Shown here one piece after another: positions 17,854 through 27,934 of a stretch of DNA of 28,568 bases. The notes beneath the pieces were generated by a model. It had not been told where the DNA came from. It ran no database searches and saw nothing but the letters and a program-made list of their open reading frames with translations. The position numbers were made by a program, and so were the translations under genes. The stretch is taken from positions 1-28,568 of the IMG/VR virus record IMGVR_UViG_3300025771_000134. One strand, 5' to 3'. Each line of letters starts with the position of its first letter. The first letter of the stretch is position 1. The DNA is from a virus.

Positions 17854-18093
17854 ATGGCGAAAAAAACACTTAAAAAATATTATCAAGAGAATCCATCTAC
17901 AACTGGACAAGGAAGCTTCTTAGATCGAGAAGATATCAAGGATCTAGTTGATGAGGGTATTCAAGGAATTAAAGATGGCATACCAGCAACAGTTGTTGCT
18001 CGATGGCTTGTCTCTGAAGCTCCGACTGATCTAAATAGGAAATTTCACACAATAAGACAAGGACTTCTTCATCGTGCCAAAGAAATCTCTTAA
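17854..18093 (+). CDS. 79-residue helical protein before the phosphoesterase
   Basis: Start after AAGAGGA. MAKKTLKKYYQENPS resembles the start of the next protein (MPKKSLKNYNKDN), a sign of local duplication or a shared tag. The remainder is helical (IKDLVDEGIQGIKDGIPATV, ARWLVSEAP, LNRKFHTIRQGLLHRAKEI), like a short DNA-binding or adaptor domain. Its last 20 bases contain the GTG start of the phosphoesterase gene. Function unknown. Confidence 0.6.
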   Translation: MAKKTLKKYYQENPSTTGQGSFLDREDIKDLVDEGIQGIKDGIPATVVARWLVSEAPTDLNRKFHTIRQGLLHRAKEIS

Positions 18094-19282
18094 AAATTAT
18101 AACAAGGACAACACAGTCATTAAAGGCGTGGATAAGTCCGAGAAAGTTAAGATCTCCAGAAAAGATGACAAAGCAACTGCAACTCTGCCAGTTGGATCAT
18201 CAGATATTAATGAAGTCTGGAGAATGTTAGAAGAACGAGGATTCTCTCCAGATGACTGGGAGATCCAGAGTCTAACTGTTAACCAGTGGGAAGCTCCATC
18301 AACTGATGGCGTTCAACTGTTTGAACAGACTAAAGCGACACTGAAACAAAAACCAAAGTATTTGGGAGAGTTAATCAGTTCACTTGGATCAATTGGGAGT
18401 GCTGGTTTCAGTCCTCAACCAAAGCTCAAAGCGAAAGCTAAACAAGAGATGCTTGTGATTCTCGGTGATCACCAACTGCCATTTCGGAATGAGATATTGA
18501 CTGAACTCTCCCACTCTTTCTTAAATGATCTTAAACCAGATGGTTTAGTGTATATGGGAGATCTTATTGACTTCCCTAACTTGTCACACTTTGCAACGAA
18601 TCCAGATTTCACATCTACTGTGCAACAAGGGATTGATCTAGGTCATAGAACACTTAGAGATCTAAAAGACTCAGCTGGTCTAAAAAAGGGATCAGAGATG
18701 ATCTTTATTGAGGGCAATCACGAAGTCAGACTGAGAAAAGCATTAGTTGAGAAACTCCCCCAGCTTTTTGGTATAAAGAAAGCTGATGTGACTGATGATG
18801 AAAAGTCTGTCTTGCATTTAGCTTCTTTAATGAGATTTGATGATCTAGGTTGGACTTATTGGGATGAACCATCAGATGTCTATCCTCATCCAGAATACGA
18901 AATCGTTAAGGGACTATTTGCCCGACATGGCAACTTTGTTCGAGCAAAGGCAGGAATGTCTGCACTTGCTAACTTGGATCGTGTTGATGGATCAATAATA
19001 CAAGGACACACGCATCGACTTGCGATCACTCATCATTCAAGATGGACTGGTCAACAGATGAATTTATATACAGCTATCGAGACAGGAACTATGGCAGATC
19101 TTAAAGGTCTTGGTTATTCAAAACAACCAGACTGGCAAGGAGGATTCATAACTCTTGTTGTTGATCGCAAAACAAACACATTTCATCCAGAATTAGTGAT
19201 CTTTAATGAAGACACGATCACTTGGAGAGGATTCTTCTGGAAATACACAACCAAAGGAATTAAAACAAATTATGGATATTAA
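18074..19282 (+). CDS. calcineurin-like metallophosphoesterase
   Basis: 402 residues with the full set of metal ligands: LGDHQ (D132, H133), MGDLIDF (D163), EGNHE (N215, H216), ARHG (H286) and GHTHR (H312, H314). The N-terminal 120 residues are an extra domain (WRMLEERGFSPDDWEIQSLT, then a linker). Start is GTG 18074 inside the preceding gene, with AAGGA upstream; no other start suits. Phage enzymes of this class cleave phosphodiesters or phosphate groups on nucleic acid or cyclic nucleotides; the substrate here is unknown. Its place among lysis and tail genes is unusual but also seen in actinophages. Confidence 0.88.
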   Translation: MPKKSLKNYNKDNTVIKGVDKSEKVKISRKDDKATATLPVGSSDINEVWRMLEERGFSPDDWEIQSLTVNQWEAPSTDGVQLFEQTKATLKQKPKYLGELISSLGSIGSAGFSPQPKLKAKAKQEMLVILGDHQLPFRNEILTELSHSFLNDLKPDGLVYMGDLIDFPNLSHFATNPDFTSTVQQGIDLGHRTLRDLKDSAGLKKGSEMIFIEGNHEVRLRKALVEKLPQLFGIKKADVTDDEKSVLHLASLMRFDDLGWTYWDEPSDVYPHPEYEIVKGLFARHGNFVRAKAGMSALANLDRVDGSIIQGHTHRLAITHHSRWTGQQMNLYTAIETGTMADLKGLGYSKQPDWQGGFITLVVDRKTNTFHPELVIFNEDTITWRGFFWKYTTKGIKTNYGY

Positions 19283-20368: not shown

Positions 20369-20506
20369 ATGTTTAAATGTCCGATTTGTCTTCACGCTAG
20401 TTGTTCTCTTAGATGGAACAGACTCATTAATGCACTTGAGTTGCATTGTCACAGGTGTGGTCGTGGAACAAAAGTTCTGTCAGATGATGCTAAAGAAATA
20501 CATTAA
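20369..20506 (+). CDS. 45-residue zinc-ribbon protein
   Basis: ATG 20369 follows AAGGAGATCTG. MFKCPICLHASC ... LHCHRCGRG gives CxxC at C4/C7 and C27/C30, a treble-clef or zinc-ribbon pair. Last plus-strand gene of the late operon; the terminator begins 9 bases beyond its stop. Could be a small regulator of late transcription or of host RNA polymerase; no direct evidence. Confidence 0.65.
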   Translation: MFKCPICLHASCSLRWNRLINALELHCHRCGRGTKVLSDDAKEIH

Positions 20507-20512
20507 AATTTA

Positions 20513-21967
20513 TTAAAAGGGTGGATTCTTCTGCCCTTTTTTTGTTTTTGTAGAGGTTTTTTTTGTCTTAGGTTTATATAGCTCATTAGCTTTGTGCCAG
20601 AGATAATAAACTTCCTTTTTAGTTGATTCATCATCATACTGTTTGTCGAGATCATCTAGGATCTCAGATTCTTTCATCTCTAAAAATAAATTAATCCATT
20701 GTTTTAAATATCCACTGTCTTTCATAACTTGCTTTTCAGTTAATCCTTTTCCTTGTAGGTCTGAAGTTATTCTTCTTAATGAAGCTCTCTCCCACAACAA
20801 ATCTTTTGGATCTTTTATCTTCATATCAGTTGTTTGCAAAATTATATCTGGAGTTGGAAATCTCGAATCAAAATCATTTCCAAATAAAATAAAATCGTTT
20901 AGAAAAGACATTATCTCAGAATTTGTTAGTGGTCTCCACTGAATATCTGGGAGATGTTTTAAATTTGCTCGATAATGAGCATTCGACAATCTTAACTGGA
21001 GGAGATAATAAGAATGTTCAGTGAAAACTTTAAGAACATCTTTCCAGTGATTTTTGACAAAAGATGGTTCATCAGTCTCCTTTTCCTCCCAGTATTTAAT
21101 CCCCTTGTTATCAATGCTGATTCCTTGTTCAGATAACCAGAAAGCAAGTTTGTTTTGTGATAAACCACATAAATATTGTCTAACATAAGCAAACCTCTGC
21201 TGAATGGTGTTAATCTCAATCTTCTTTTTCATTGACCAATCCTCAGTTGCAAATTCTGGATCATTAAAATAACTTGCAACACCATTGACTTGTCCAAAAT
21301 GCATCATCACAACTTTTTGAGTTTTTTTAAGACCAAGCCATTTCTCATCAAAGAAATGTTGTGCCTTGTTTGAATACTCTTCAAGTTGTTGCTTTGAATG
21401 TTTAGATGGATAAACAATTGATCTAGGTTCTTGATTGTTATTATGAAAAACAATTGCAGAGATGTATGAACCATCTCCATTTAGATTCTGATCAAGTTCA
21501 CTTATATGATCTTTGTCAGTGACACCATACCAAACAACAAATGTATTCCAGTTTTTCGCAAGAGACATTGATCCAAGAAACTTAACCTCAGCGAGAATTG
21601 ATTGTTGCATATCATAAGTTGATGCTGTCTTAGTTTTATCAAGATATTTAGCAAACCTTTTAATTGCTGGTGTTGATAGATCAACTTTTGTCTCTAGTAT
21701 TTCTTTTTCAGTCGTTGGCTTGGTCATCTTTTTAAGCAGACCTCTAGTTGGATATTTCTCATAGGTTGAAAGCATAAGACTGATGATTCGTTTATCAGTT
21801 AAAGAAGCATACATTGTGTCAATGCCCTCTTGGTATAGATCATCATCCCAACCAGTGACAATGTTCTTCCAAGCATTTGGATCAATGCCCTCAGCTTTTA
21901 TCTTTGAACTTTTAGAATTAAATATGAGATTCTGAAATTCAATATCTTTTTTGTCTCTATCTTCCAT
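20513..21967 (-). CDS. large orphan protein with internal XRE-like helix-turn-helix, in repressor position
   Basis: 484 residues; with the small gene at 27634-27825, one of only two minus-strand genes. Not recognised as a family. Residues about 258-315 (FAYVRQYLCGLSQNKLAFWL ... GIKYWEEKETDEPS) match the XRE/Cro helix-turn-helix pattern: 'yvR..l.GlsQ..lA..L....i.i....i..WE....P'. The N-terminal 250 residues are mixed, with a segment ILAEVKFLGSMSLAKNW and VVMMHFGQVNGVASYF; the C-terminus is helical and ends in a Lys/Thr tail (KTKKTSTKTKKGQK). Lies divergent to the excisionase-like gene, the classic place for a CI-type repressor, but is about twice a normal repressor. Its promoter predicts a leaderless mRNA, as for lambda cI. 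Alternatives: superinfection-exclusion or defence gene expressed in the lysogen. Confidence 0.72.
   Translation of the reverse strand: MEDRDKKDIEFQNLIFNSKSSKIKAEGIDPNAWKNIVTGWDDDLYQEGIDTMYASLTDKRIISLMLSTYEKYPTRGLLKKMTKPTTEKEILETKVDLSTPAIKRFAKYLDKTKTASTYDMQQSILAEVKFLGSMSLAKNWNTFVVWYGVTDKDHISELDQNLNGDGSYISAIVFHNNNQEPRSIVYPSKHSKQQLEEYSNKAQHFFDEKWLGLKKTQKVVMMHFGQVNGVASYFNDPEFATEDWSMKKKIEINTIQQRFAYVRQYLCGLSQNKLAFWLSEQGISIDNKGIKYWEEKETDEPSFVKNHWKDVLKVFTEHSYYLLQLRLSNAHYRANLKHLPDIQWRPLTNSEIMSFLNDFILFGNDFDSRFPTPDIILQTTDMKIKDPKDLLWERASLRRITSDLQGKGLTEKQVMKDSGYLKQWINLFLEMKESEILDDLDKQYDDESTKKEVYYLWHKANELYKPKTKKTSTKTKKGQKNPPF
20515..20543. terminator. bidirectional terminator between convergent genes
   Basis: AAAAGGGTGGA-ttct-TCTGCCCTTTT, 11 pairs including two G-U, followed by further T on the plus strand. 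On the minus strand the stem is followed by AATAAATTTT. It ends the late operon and the opposing minus-strand gene, overlapping the last codons of the latter. Confidence 0.8.
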
Positions 21968-21973
21968 ACAGGA

Positions 21974-22001
21974 ATTGTTGCAGAATTATTTAGTTTGTCA
22001 A
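21974..22001 (-). promoter_or_regulatory. predicted leaderless promoter of the minus-strand orphan
   Basis: Read on the minus strand: TTGACA (22001-21996), 16 bases, AACAAT (21979-21974), then TCCTGT and the ATG at 21967. A start site about 7 bases after the -10 falls on the A of ATG, and there is no Shine-Dalgarno, whereas most other genes in the window have AGGAG. A plus-strand TTGTCA (21995-22000) overlaps the same -35, with a weaker GAAAAT 16 bases on, so divergent transcription may compete. Confidence 0.6.
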
Positions 22002-22073
22002 GAGTATAGGTATAAAGAAAATTTCTTGCCTAACAATGCCATCATAATGACACATAGGTGTTAAAGTATTTAT

Positions 22074-22107
22074 TAGTTAGGTAGAAAATATAGATTCTAC
22101 CTAGCTA
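22074..22107 (+). promoter_or_regulatory. 13-bp hairpin / operator-like inverted repeat in the early leader
   Basis: TAGTTAGGTAGAA-aatataga-TTCTACCTAGCTA, 13 pairs with one G-U. It lies between the divergent promoters and the leader terminator. As DNA it could be an operator for a dimeric repressor; as RNA, the first stem of an attenuator or small RNA. Confidence 0.6.
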
Positions 22108-22114
22108 GGAAGAC

Positions 22115-22149
22115 AAAGGGGCAATGTGGTTTTCACACTTGCCCTTTTT
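22115..22149 (+). terminator. strong terminator upstream of the first early gene
   Basis: AAAGGGGCAA TGTG-gtttt-CACA (C) TTGCCC TTTTT: stem of 10 pairs with outer A-T and G-U pairs and one bulged C, then five T. It stands 17 bases before the ATG of the excisionase-like gene, inside the early transcript, so it should block or regulate read-through. Confidence 0.85.
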
Positions 22150-22166
22150 AATTATAGGAGATTGAA

Positions 22167-22352
22167 ATGAAAAGATTGCTCTCAGTCAAAGAGATTATGG
22201 AGATCACAGGTTGGTCTAAAGCTTTCGCATACAAACTCATTAATTCAAACAAACTTCCAGCAATCCCAACAAATTCAGAAGAGAAGCTCCTCCCAATTCG
22301 TGTAGAGATTTCAGAACTAGAAAAGTTGATCAAAGGTGGTGCTGATGTCTAG
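22167..22352 (+). CDS. excisionase-like helix-turn-helix protein
   Basis: 61 residues after ATAGGAG. LLSVKEIMEITGWSKAFAYK followed by LINSNKLPAIP is the HTH_17/excisionase (AlpA/Xis) winged-helix pattern: recognition helix, then a 'g.lP.i' wing. First gene of the early operon, divergent from the repressor-position gene, so it may act as excisionase, Cro-like switch protein, or both. ATG plus strong ribosome site make the start certain. Confidence 0.82.
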   Translation: MKRLLSVKEIMEITGWSKAFAYKLINSNKLPAIPTNSEEKLLPIRVEISELEKLIKGGADV

Positions 22353-22734
22353 CAAAGCAAAGCGTGATATTTGGTATCAACTAGATGCAAGATTGTTTGA
22401 AAAATTTGAAGTGATGCGAATAGCTCAAGCATTAAAAATAAGTATTAACGAAACAGTTGGAGCATTGGTCAGACTCTGGTCAATATCCATAACACAGTTT
22501 CCAGAGGGCAAAGGAGAACTTGTCGCTGGAAAATTAAAGGTGTCTGTCCAAGATCTTCCAGTCATTATGGCATTGGAGAATGATGGACAAGCAATATTTG
22601 ATGCTCTTGCAGAGTGTCAATGGATCGAAGAGCGTGATGGGATAATTGTCATCCCAAAATGGGATATGAAAATTGGTCAAACCATTATCAAGCTCGAAAA
22701 AGATCTCGAACGAAAAAGAAAGCTGGAGGATTAA
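22345..22734 (+). CDS. replisome-organizer-like DNA replication protein
   Basis: 129 residues from ATG 22345 (GTG 22336 would add three residues); overlaps the previous stop by 8 bases. WYQLDARLFEKFEVMRIAQA, NETVGALVRLWSISITQFPE, then ALAECQWIEERDGIIVIPKW. The pattern 'W..l...l...kv..la..lg....ea.G.lv.LW.......pdG' followed by 'L...gwi.....g..i..w' is typical of phage replisome organizer N-terminal winged-helix domains. Ends in a basic helix (EKDLERKRKLED). Likely binds the origin and recruits the host helicase; only the N-terminal domain is present. Confidence 0.7.
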   Translation: MSSKAKRDIWYQLDARLFEKFEVMRIAQALKISINETVGALVRLWSISITQFPEGKGELVAGKLKVSVQDLPVIMALENDGQAIFDALAECQWIEERDGIIVIPKWDMKIGQTIIKLEKDLERKRKLED

Positions 22735-24386: not shown

Positions 24387-24872
24387 ATGAACCAAAAAAT
24401 TGATCAAGCACTTAGACAAATAGAACTATCAAAGAAAGCAATTAGTGATGCAGAACTTATTCTCGCTGATCTACTGCAAGAAGATAATGTTCCAAGTGTT
24501 ATTGAGCCAGAACCAATGCAACAAGTCAAAGAAGATATGAAAGAAGTTGGAATGGAGTTCACAGATAAAACTCCTCCTCGAACCGATCTTCAGTGTCCTT
24601 TATGCACTTCAAAAGTCTATGACAATAGACCGAACAAAGAATCTGGTCAATATAAAGCGACAGCTCCAGACTTCAGTTGTTCTAATAACAATGACTGCTC
24701 TGGTATGACACAAGGAAATCAAAGAATGCTTAGAAAAGCTTGGTGGTTAGATTCAAAAGATCTACCACAAGACTGGATCAATACAACTGTGCCAGTTAGT
24801 GCCGATGATGATCGTGTTGTTATAGATCCACCACAAGAGAATGCTGAAGACATCGGCGTTCCATTTAACTAA
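24387..24872 (+). CDS. early protein with coil and zinc-finger domain
   Basis: 161 residues after TTAAGGAGGTGAA. N-terminal helix (IDQALRQIELSKKAISDAEL) and acidic linker; then LQCPLCTSKVYDNRPNKESG and PDFSCSNNNDCSGM give C70/C73 and C98/C104. The pattern 'CP.C.s...dnR..k..g....p.f.Cs...C' is seen in small DNA-binding phage proteins of actinophages. Acidic Pro-rich C-terminus (ENAEDIGVPFN). Possible single-strand or replication accessory. Confidence 0.6.
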   Translation: MNQKIDQALRQIELSKKAISDAELILADLLQEDNVPSVIEPEPMQQVKEDMKEVGMEFTDKTPPRTDLQCPLCTSKVYDNRPNKESGQYKATAPDFSCSNNNDCSGMTQGNQRMLRKAWWLDSKDLPQDWINTTVPVSADDDRVVIDPPQENAEDIGVPFN

Positions 24873-24891
24873 ATACCTAGGAGGTAGAGAT

Positions 24892-25431
24892 ATGTCAGAG
24901 ATTGACAAAGACAGGAAGAAATTCCAAGAACCATACAATTTGGATCATTTATTTGATCCACTAACAGATATGGATGACTCAGACAGCAAAGTCTTTATGG
25001 CAGAGACTGAAGAGGAAGCACATAAGATCCTTTTTGCTTATGTTAATAAAGAGATCAAGAAAGTCTGGGATCAGAGCATAAAAGCGTTCAGTGAACTTGA
25101 TAGCTTAACAAAGAAAATCGGTTCGGTTAGTGAATGGAAATTGGCTAAGACTGTATATAAAAAAGATGACTGGATCGCAACACAAGACAAGATTGCGATG
25201 ACAGATATTGGAAGTCTTGATTTTTATCAAATTAATAAACTGCAAGATGAGGTTGATCAGTATCGATTGCAAGTTGCTATTGAAAAATTTCAACACATAA
25301 GAAATATAAATAAAAACTTAGATGATTTGAGTTTTGAATTAACTCACATAATCAGTCACTTGTCAGAAATTATAAGCGATCCAGATGCTATTGAAGTATT
25401 TGAACGCAAAGAGGGAGAAGCTCCCTTTTAA
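24892..25431 (+). CDS. unknown acidic early protein, mostly helical
   Basis: 179 residues; start ATG 24892 behind AGGAGGTAGAG. Acidic opening (LDHLFDPLTDMDDSDSK), central helices (KEIKKVWDQSIKAFSELDSL), then a long coil (INKLQDEVDQYRLQVAIEKF, LDDLSFELTHIISHLSEI). Acidic, non-enzymatic look; possible structural or inhibitor protein. The 3' end carries the small terminator of the early operon. Confidence 0.5.
   Translation: MSEIDKDRKKFQEPYNLDHLFDPLTDMDDSDSKVFMAETEEEAHKILFAYVNKEIKKVWDQSIKAFSELDSLTKKIGSVSEWKLAKTVYKKDDWIATQDKIAMTDIGSLDFYQINKLQDEVDQYRLQVAIEKFQHIRNINKNLDDLSFELTHIISHLSEIISDPDAIEVFERKEGEAPF
25409..25429 (+). terminator. small terminator at the end of the early operon
   Basis: AGGGAG-aag-CTCCCT then TTTTA, overlapping the stop of the preceding gene. 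Six strong pairs with a tight loop and four T; upstream A's can extend the stem. Separates the early genes from WhiB. Confidence 0.55.
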
Positions 25432-25438
25432 CGACTAA

Positions 25439-25491
25439 CAACAAGCTGATCAGTCCATAATTGCCCAATTGTCTTCTGGTCAGCTTTGTTG
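25439..25491 (+). promoter_or_regulatory. 15-bp hairpin directly upstream of the WhiB start
   Basis: CAACAAGCTGATCAG (25439-25453) pairs with CTGGTCAGCTTTGTTG (25476-25491), 15 pairs with one bulged T and one G-U; AATT pairs in the loop too. No T-tract follows. The hairpin ends 7 bases before ATG 25498, where no Shine-Dalgarno is visible. Control of WhiB translation or an operator is possible. Confidence 0.6.
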
Positions 25492-25497
25492 CATTAT

Positions 25498-25824
25498 ATG
25501 AACAATGAACTTTTGCCTCTTGGAGAGGTTAAGGAATTAATAAAAGATCCAAACTATCGTTGGCGAGATCGTGCCAATTGTCTTGGTGTAGATGTCAACA
25601 GCTTCATTATTGATCGAGATGCTAGAGGAAAGAAGATCGAGAAGATCTATGAGAAAGCTCTCTCCTACTGTGAAGACTGCGATGTCAAAGCTGAGTGCCT
25701 CGCATTCGCTATTGAATACAAATGTTTGGATGGTGTCTGGGGAAATCTTCTGCCAGATCAAAGAAAAGGACTGCACAATCATAGAAAGGTGCGTGACTTA
25801 TTAAAGGAAAGAAAAAGAAAGTGA
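25498..25824 (+). CDS. WhiB-family iron-sulfur transcription regulator
   Basis: 108 residues from ATG 25498; in-frame TTG 25486/25489 are alternatives. Four Fe-S cysteines: C28 (RANCLGVD), C58, C61 and C67 (YCEDCDVKAEC, the C-x2-C-x5-C of the family), plus GVWGN at 79-83 (the G-V/I-W-G turn) and a basic tail (RKVRDLLKERKRK). WhiB proteins bind sigma factor and RNA polymerase and are restricted to actinobacteria and their phages. Here it could redirect host transcription or block superinfection, as known for phage TM4 WhiB. No ribosome site; hairpin upstream. Confidence 0.92.
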   Translation: MNNELLPLGEVKELIKDPNYRWRDRANCLGVDVNSFIIDRDARGKKIEKIYEKALSYCEDCDVKAECLAFAIEYKCLDGVWGNLLPDQRKGLHNHRKVRDLLKERKRK

Positions 25825-27499: not shown

Positions 27500-27573
27500 G
27501 GGGCGTTAACTCAGTCTGGCAGAGTGTCACCTCGACAAGGTGAAAGTCATAGGTTCAAATCCTATACGCCCCA
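27500..27573 (+). tRNA. tRNA-Val(GAC)-like gene next to the integrase, probable attP
   Basis: Full cloverleaf: acceptor GGGGCGT/ACGCCCC, D-arm ACTC/GAGT with GG in the loop, anticodon stem TCACC/GGTGA with loop TCGACAA (anticodon GAC at 27534-27536), T-arm ATAGG/CCTAT with TTCAAAT, discriminator A. GAC and A73 agree with valine. Position 33 is C, not the usual U. CCA is not encoded. As it lies directly 3' of the integrase, the 3' half is a likely crossover site. Confidence 0.78.
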
Positions 27574-27575
27574 CA

Positions 27576-27825: not shown

Positions 27826-27858
27826 ATAAATAATATAACAGAGACCACTGACATTTCT

Positions 27859-27924
27859 TTCCAAGGAATTTCCGAGGAAGTTCCAAGGAATGTCCAAGGA
27901 GTTTCCATACCTTTTCCAAGGAAA
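27859..27924. repeat. six-unit 11-bp array of TTCCAAGGAAT
   Basis: Units start at 27859, 27870, 27881, 27892, 27903 and 27914: TTCCAAGGAAT, TTCCGAGGAAG, TTCCAAGGAAT, GTCCAAGGAGT, TTCCATACCTT, TTCCAAGGAAA. Five are good copies of a TTCCnnGGAA near-palindrome, and the fifth is degenerate. Exact 11-base phase puts all on one DNA face. It lies in the 301-base gene-free region 27826-28126. Confidence 0.9.
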
Positions 27925-27934
27925 ATCTGACATA

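Follow-up and report, generated by a model that had tools for sequence, protein, structure and literature searches.

The regulator locus and its neighbours

In the 28.6-kb IMG/VR virus record analysed here over its full length (hereafter the window), we found an intact minus-strand open reading frame of 484 codons with an ATG start (20513-21967), which we refer to as the regulator. As the preliminary description had stated, it is divergent from an AlpA/excisionase-like gene (22167-22352, plus strand) with which the early operon begins; this gene has matches to HTH_17 (E 1.1e-7) and to the PHROG excisionase/regulator family phrog_66 (E 3.3e-6). On the other side lie a holin-like gene and the end of the rightward late genes, which a terminator-like stem (20515-20540) closes where the regulator has its 3' end. 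The late genes and the regulator are separated by a 45-aa cysteine-rich ORF (CPIC, HCHRC; 20369-20506, plus strand). Further to the left, a metallophosphoesterase gene (18074-19282, plus strand) is distantly similar to a cluster A phage gene (e.g. of Bxb1), in a stretch that carries the annotation metallo-phosphoesterase and recombination directionality factor there; the window itself encodes a tyrosine-type integrase.

The host is probably an actinobacterium, because the window carries a WhiB-family gene (25486-25824, plus strand; PF02467, E 5.5e-12; also in the relative L012, 3030-3365), a family known in actinophages (PMC8612146), and because, judged by terminase, Streptomyces phages and the Pontimonas phage phiPsal1 are among its nearest annotated phages. 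Two further early proteins (24841-25431 and 24387-24872, plus strand) end in EGEAPF and EDIGVPFN, endings that are similar to the acidic tip at the C-terminus of single-strand-binding proteins; in the alignment of the regulator family the protein end in most lineages is PPF. An Rfam search returned tRNA only, and a complete tRNA-Val(gac) directly after the integrase (27500-27574, plus strand), found also in L003 and L004 and not in L012, L027 and L036, may mark attP or a host junction. Near the integrase end, five 18-nt copies of TTTCCAAGGAA-type repeats in 11- or 22-bp steps (27858-27930) are possible recombinase arm or packaging sites.

A constrained gene in a constant slot

The regulator is a real gene under purifying selection, since its dN/dS against relatives at 86-60% identity is about 0.2-0.34 over the whole protein and 0.08-0.11 in residues 249-340, compared with 0.15-0.6 in the remaining parts. 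A member of its family was present in the same slot, between the holin-like and AlpA/excisionase genes, in 24 of the 24 IMG/VR contigs that reach far enough, most of which were found via neighbouring genes or share them, so that the shared neighbourhood is by construction; only part of the IMG/VR searches used the regulator protein itself as query. Homologues lying away from switch regions, which the preliminary description had named as evidence against its reading, were not seen among these largely anchor-derived contigs. The members measure about 455-540 aa and are 23-100% identical to the regulator; those of L027, L033 and L034, at 23-25%, were found with neighbouring Rep and holin-like proteins as queries. 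The member of L010 (2028-3425) is almost identical to that of L012 except for an 18-residue in-frame gap right before the helix-turn-helix (HTH) region.

Searches of the whole protein against Pfam, PHROGs, NCBIfam and PADLOC and a PDB-sequence profile search gave nothing significant, and no relatives were detected in 84,980 genomes or 50,697 phage records, so that IMG/VR is the sole source of the family. The gene had been called an orphan; this holds with regard to named libraries, but relatives do exist in IMG/VR. Weak matches to the PHROG "anti-repressor" family phrog_9438 were obtained for five of eight members (E 0.044-0.054; the regulator itself 0.054). We call the family a previously unnamed, large and fast-diverging family of putative repressors, of a known functional kind and with an unusual predicted architecture.

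The preliminary description had offered, as its second option, that the prophage expresses this gene for superinfection exclusion or defence. Such a function would suit a large, diverse and divergently expressed gene, and two relatives, L013 and L015, have a weak DUF4379-like N-terminal zinc finger, a treble-clef element absent from the regulator of the window, while one member matches an endonuclease PHROG (E 7.3e-4). However, PADLOC returned no match, all phages of the group, not a scattered few, carry a member, the strictest constraint falls on the putative DNA-binding part, and the operators described below diverge and move with the regulator, joint travel with early-promoter dyads being unexpected for a defence gene. 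We therefore regard a defence role as very improbable.

Domain architecture and the putative helix-turn-helix

The AF2 model of the regulator (eight sequences; mean pLDDT 67, moderate confidence) places helices between residues 42 and 135, an alpha/beta domain (residues about 115-233; 21269-21625, minus strand) assigned from AF2 secondary structure, then the HTH helices, and a helical C-terminal domain (residues about 349-464; 20576-20923, minus strand) that is also visible in the alignment. The preliminary description of two unrecognised large domains around an HTH was correct in that neither gave a named family or a significant fold match. The putative XRE-like HTH itself (residues about 255-318; 21014-21205, minus strand) comprises predicted helices at 255-266, 271-280 and 287-295, followed by a long helix at 302-336, and coincides with the most conserved region of the protein. 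Ten diverged members share R258, R263, S270, L274, K288, Y292, W293, E294 and P301, among others, and by our reading R263, S270, L274, E294 and P301 occupy the positions most conserved in XRE domains.

The pattern R..R..S..L(A)....E.....P is thus invariant in the members and the helices are present in the full model, but modelling the domain in isolation gave a low-quality result (pLDDT 59, with helices 1 and 2 fused) that is too poor for use in fold searches; Foldseek with the full and isolated models gave no significant match. Neither Foldseek nor PDB-sequence profile searches confirmed the HTH, Pfam HTH families did not match the regulator even at E<=10, and PF01381 and PF12844 (XRE / HTH_3) had no match in 7 records, let alone one above the curated cut-off. 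The HTH fragment of one diverged relative matched PHROG transcriptional regulators and repressors weakly across the whole region (E 0.011-0.14), and a hand-written XRE consensus aligned over 22-23 residues only, at 7-15% probability, which we take as a lead only. An HTH in mid-protein, first proposed at about 258-315, is likely on the grounds of the modelled helices and invariant residues, although no profile or fold threshold was passed.

Predicted promoters and operators in the divergent region

Upstream of the regulator, a predicted promoter (TTGACA, 16 nt, TGc AACAAT; 21974-22001, minus strand) has its start point at or beside the ATG. The same order, a -35, a 16-nt spacer and a -10 that lies 6-8 nt ahead of the start codon, was readable in nine lineages, i.e. 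the window and eight others, of which L013 and L027 are weak; the regulator mRNA is therefore probably leaderless. For the early promoter PR, we identified a candidate extended -10 (TGTTAAAGT; 22059-22067, plus strand), with TGnTAnnnT at the equal place in five of nine lineages (the window, L006, L012, L027 and L034) and absent from L013, L015, L016 and L033. The early leader contains an intrinsic-terminator-like hairpin with a visible T-run (22115-22148, plus strand; -17.1 kcal/mol, z -4.2), kept in L006, L010, L013 and L016 (z -3.8 to -5.2), which follows the second of the dyads described next in the window type and close relatives, is not evident in L044, and may attenuate the early transcript. 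In L033 (3498-3565) and L034 (3260-3327) a long stem with 23-nt arms between this dyad and AlpA replaces the terminator-like hairpin.

The 199-bp divergent region harbours two 26-bp dyads of like geometry, the predicted operators O1 (TAGGTATAA..TTCTTGCCTA; 22007-22032) and O2 (TAGGTAGAA..TTCTACCTA; 22078-22103). Using a half-site matrix trained on L013 and L016 alone, whose regulators are about 40% identical, we scanned the whole window; O2 ranked first, with none of 300 shuffles as good, and O1 second, with 25/300 shuffles as good. Against shuffles O1 alone is unexceptional (7/300, 25/300) and by itself weak, because 25/300 were as good; its support is conservation. Apart from O1 and O2, no convincing stoperator-like site stood out in the 28.6 kb. 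The spacing of the two sites varies between 71 and 82 bp across lineages with no fixed phase, and DNA looping by helical phasing was rejected on this basis.

Within a genome the half-sites of both dyads change in step, reading TAGGTAGA in close relatives and TCGGTATA in L013 and L016. L033 and L034 have the half-site TGGGAAA in dyads of 37-38 bp, and the arrangement of two sites persists in distant lineages although their arms differ; the operators of L027, L044 and L048 were resolved only in part. Residue 287, in the predicted recognition helix, is N in the TAGGTAGA group and Q in L013 and L016, with Q occurring in two lineages only.

In all well-resolved lineages the predicted operators flank the predicted promoters, one beside each. 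This placement speaks against a replication or recombination protein that would use the dyads as its origin or an accessory site and control transcription only secondarily, as does the finding that conserved aligned columns lack a clear catalytic motif. Such a protein would accord with AlpA and a Rep-like protein opening the early operon and with weak, non-significant Foldseek matches of the regulator to RNase H and transposases, yet we judge it highly unlikely.

Exchange of the regulator together with its operators

Comparison of L027 with L012 revealed 92% identity up to the regulator stop, then no detectable DNA match through the gene and its operators, until similarity resumes at 84% within the O2 region. 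Relative to the window, the left breakpoint lies at 20509, 4 bp past the regulator stop codon, in L027, L038, L044 and L045. The right breakpoint of L027 is at 22084, inside O2, and that of L044 and L045 is at 22399, beyond the intergenic region, so that in these two AlpA was replaced too. Because the left break is shared and the right one falls inside O2 or at 22399, regulator and operators travel as one exchangeable cassette in near-identical phages. Joint exchange of a regulator with its operators is the behaviour of immunity modules, as in lambdoid phages.

Proposed function

The preliminary proposal of a lysogeny regulator is strongly supported by the gene in its invariant slot, the paired dyads, the divergence of the operators with the regulator and the joint cassette exchange. 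On this evidence the regulator is very probably the immunity (prophage-maintenance) repressor of a marine actinophage group, binding O1 and O2 around the early promoter. In the mechanism that we infer, the gene would be transcribed leftward from its leaderless promoter, with the ATG itself as predicted start, and the protein, probably a dimer, would bind O1 and O2 via the mid-protein XRE-like HTH. O1, between the two promoters and beside the regulator's own -35, would serve autoregulation, O2 lies just downstream of the predicted early start, and occupation of both would block the rightward operon of AlpA, replication, WhiB and integrase genes.

The S24 peptidase (PF00717) was absent at E<=10 from 9 records, including the whole 28.6-kb window, and was detected in 14/14 controls. 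Lambda-type RecA-stimulated self-cleavage is for this reason unlikely, and induction would probably proceed via another signal or an antagonist, for which we can only guess at AlpA or some further partner. Oligomerisation and, replacing the S24 peptidase, reception of the induction signal would probably fall to the N-terminal, alpha/beta and C-terminal helical domains around the HTH; the preliminary description had likewise suggested sensory domains there, which is possible.

The main rival of the immunity repressor would be a regulator of the decision or of the lytic side, whether Cro-like, activator or antirepressor, acting on the same operators, with lysogeny kept by another or a host-supplied repressor. 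Position and operators alone fit a repressor and an activator equally, the site next to the regulator's own -35 suits an activator too, and the weak phrog_9438 matches point in the same direction. Nevertheless, the window contains no other HTH_3/HTH_19 candidate or S24 match, no other long gene in the switch region runs leftward, and joint exchange with the early operators is typical of an immunity repressor, which makes Cro-like or antirepressor action unlikely.

Marine actinophages have few known lysogeny switches. If our assignment is true, it adds a family of repressors whose operators are predicted, together with natural variants of site specificity and natural cassette swaps, and immunity specificity would become readable and testable from metagenome sequence. 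Moreover, the size of the regulator and the absent S24 peptidase raise the question of the route of prophage induction.

Comparison with known repressors

Among actinophage immunity repressors, those of cluster A (L5 gp71, TipsytheTRex) resemble the present system in that operator motif and repressor diverge together (PMC9283540, PMC6550527). They are proteins of about 183 aa with an N-terminal HTH and a stoperator domain, which bind as monomers to >20 asymmetric 13-mers (PMC9283540, PMC6550527), whereas the 28.6 kb of the window show no more than two outstanding symmetric dyads; for want of many asymmetric sites in this stretch, a repressor of the cluster A stoperator type was rejected. The phiC31 repressor c (683 aa) is likewise a very large actinophage repressor, but homology was rejected (hhalign probability 0.1%), and hhalign gave no match of the regulator to lambda Cro or two phiPsal1 HTH proteins either. 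In phiPsal1, the nearest isolated phage by terminase, phiPsal1_028 is a minus-strand HTH gene at a comparable place after the holin, noted as "related to cI and cro", but it encodes 67 aa without detectable similarity to the regulator.

MrpR of the Bacillus prophage SPbeta is a large non-CI master repressor without S24 peptidase, whose fold is that of a tyrosine recombinase and whose repeated element differs from the dyads here (PMC10516654). The regulator too is large, non-CI and without S24 peptidase; an MrpR-type protein was rejected, as no Pfam or significant Foldseek match to the tyrosine-recombinase fold was found with a model of only moderate AF2 confidence. A doubtful further reading would be a repressor class around an exapted, catalytically dead RNase H-like/nuclease-type domain, with an embedded HTH, large flanking domains sensing a non-RecA inducing signal and, in some members, a DUF4379 zinc finger; such a class would parallel MrpR as an exapted recombinase.

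With lambda-type CI the regulator shares the switch position divergent from the early operon, the paired symmetric predicted operators lying between and by both promoters, a probable XRE-like HTH and cassette exchange. It differs in its 484 aa, in the putative HTH at 255-318, compared with residues 1-92 in lambda cI (PMC9283540), in the absent S24 peptidase and in that no sequence homology was found. Its action would thus be that of a CI-type repressor, a class to which it does not belong by the criteria of an N-terminal HTH or an S24 peptidase; most likely, it is a regulator about twice the usual repressor size, with its probable DNA-reading part in mid-protein, that is traded between viruses with its target sites.
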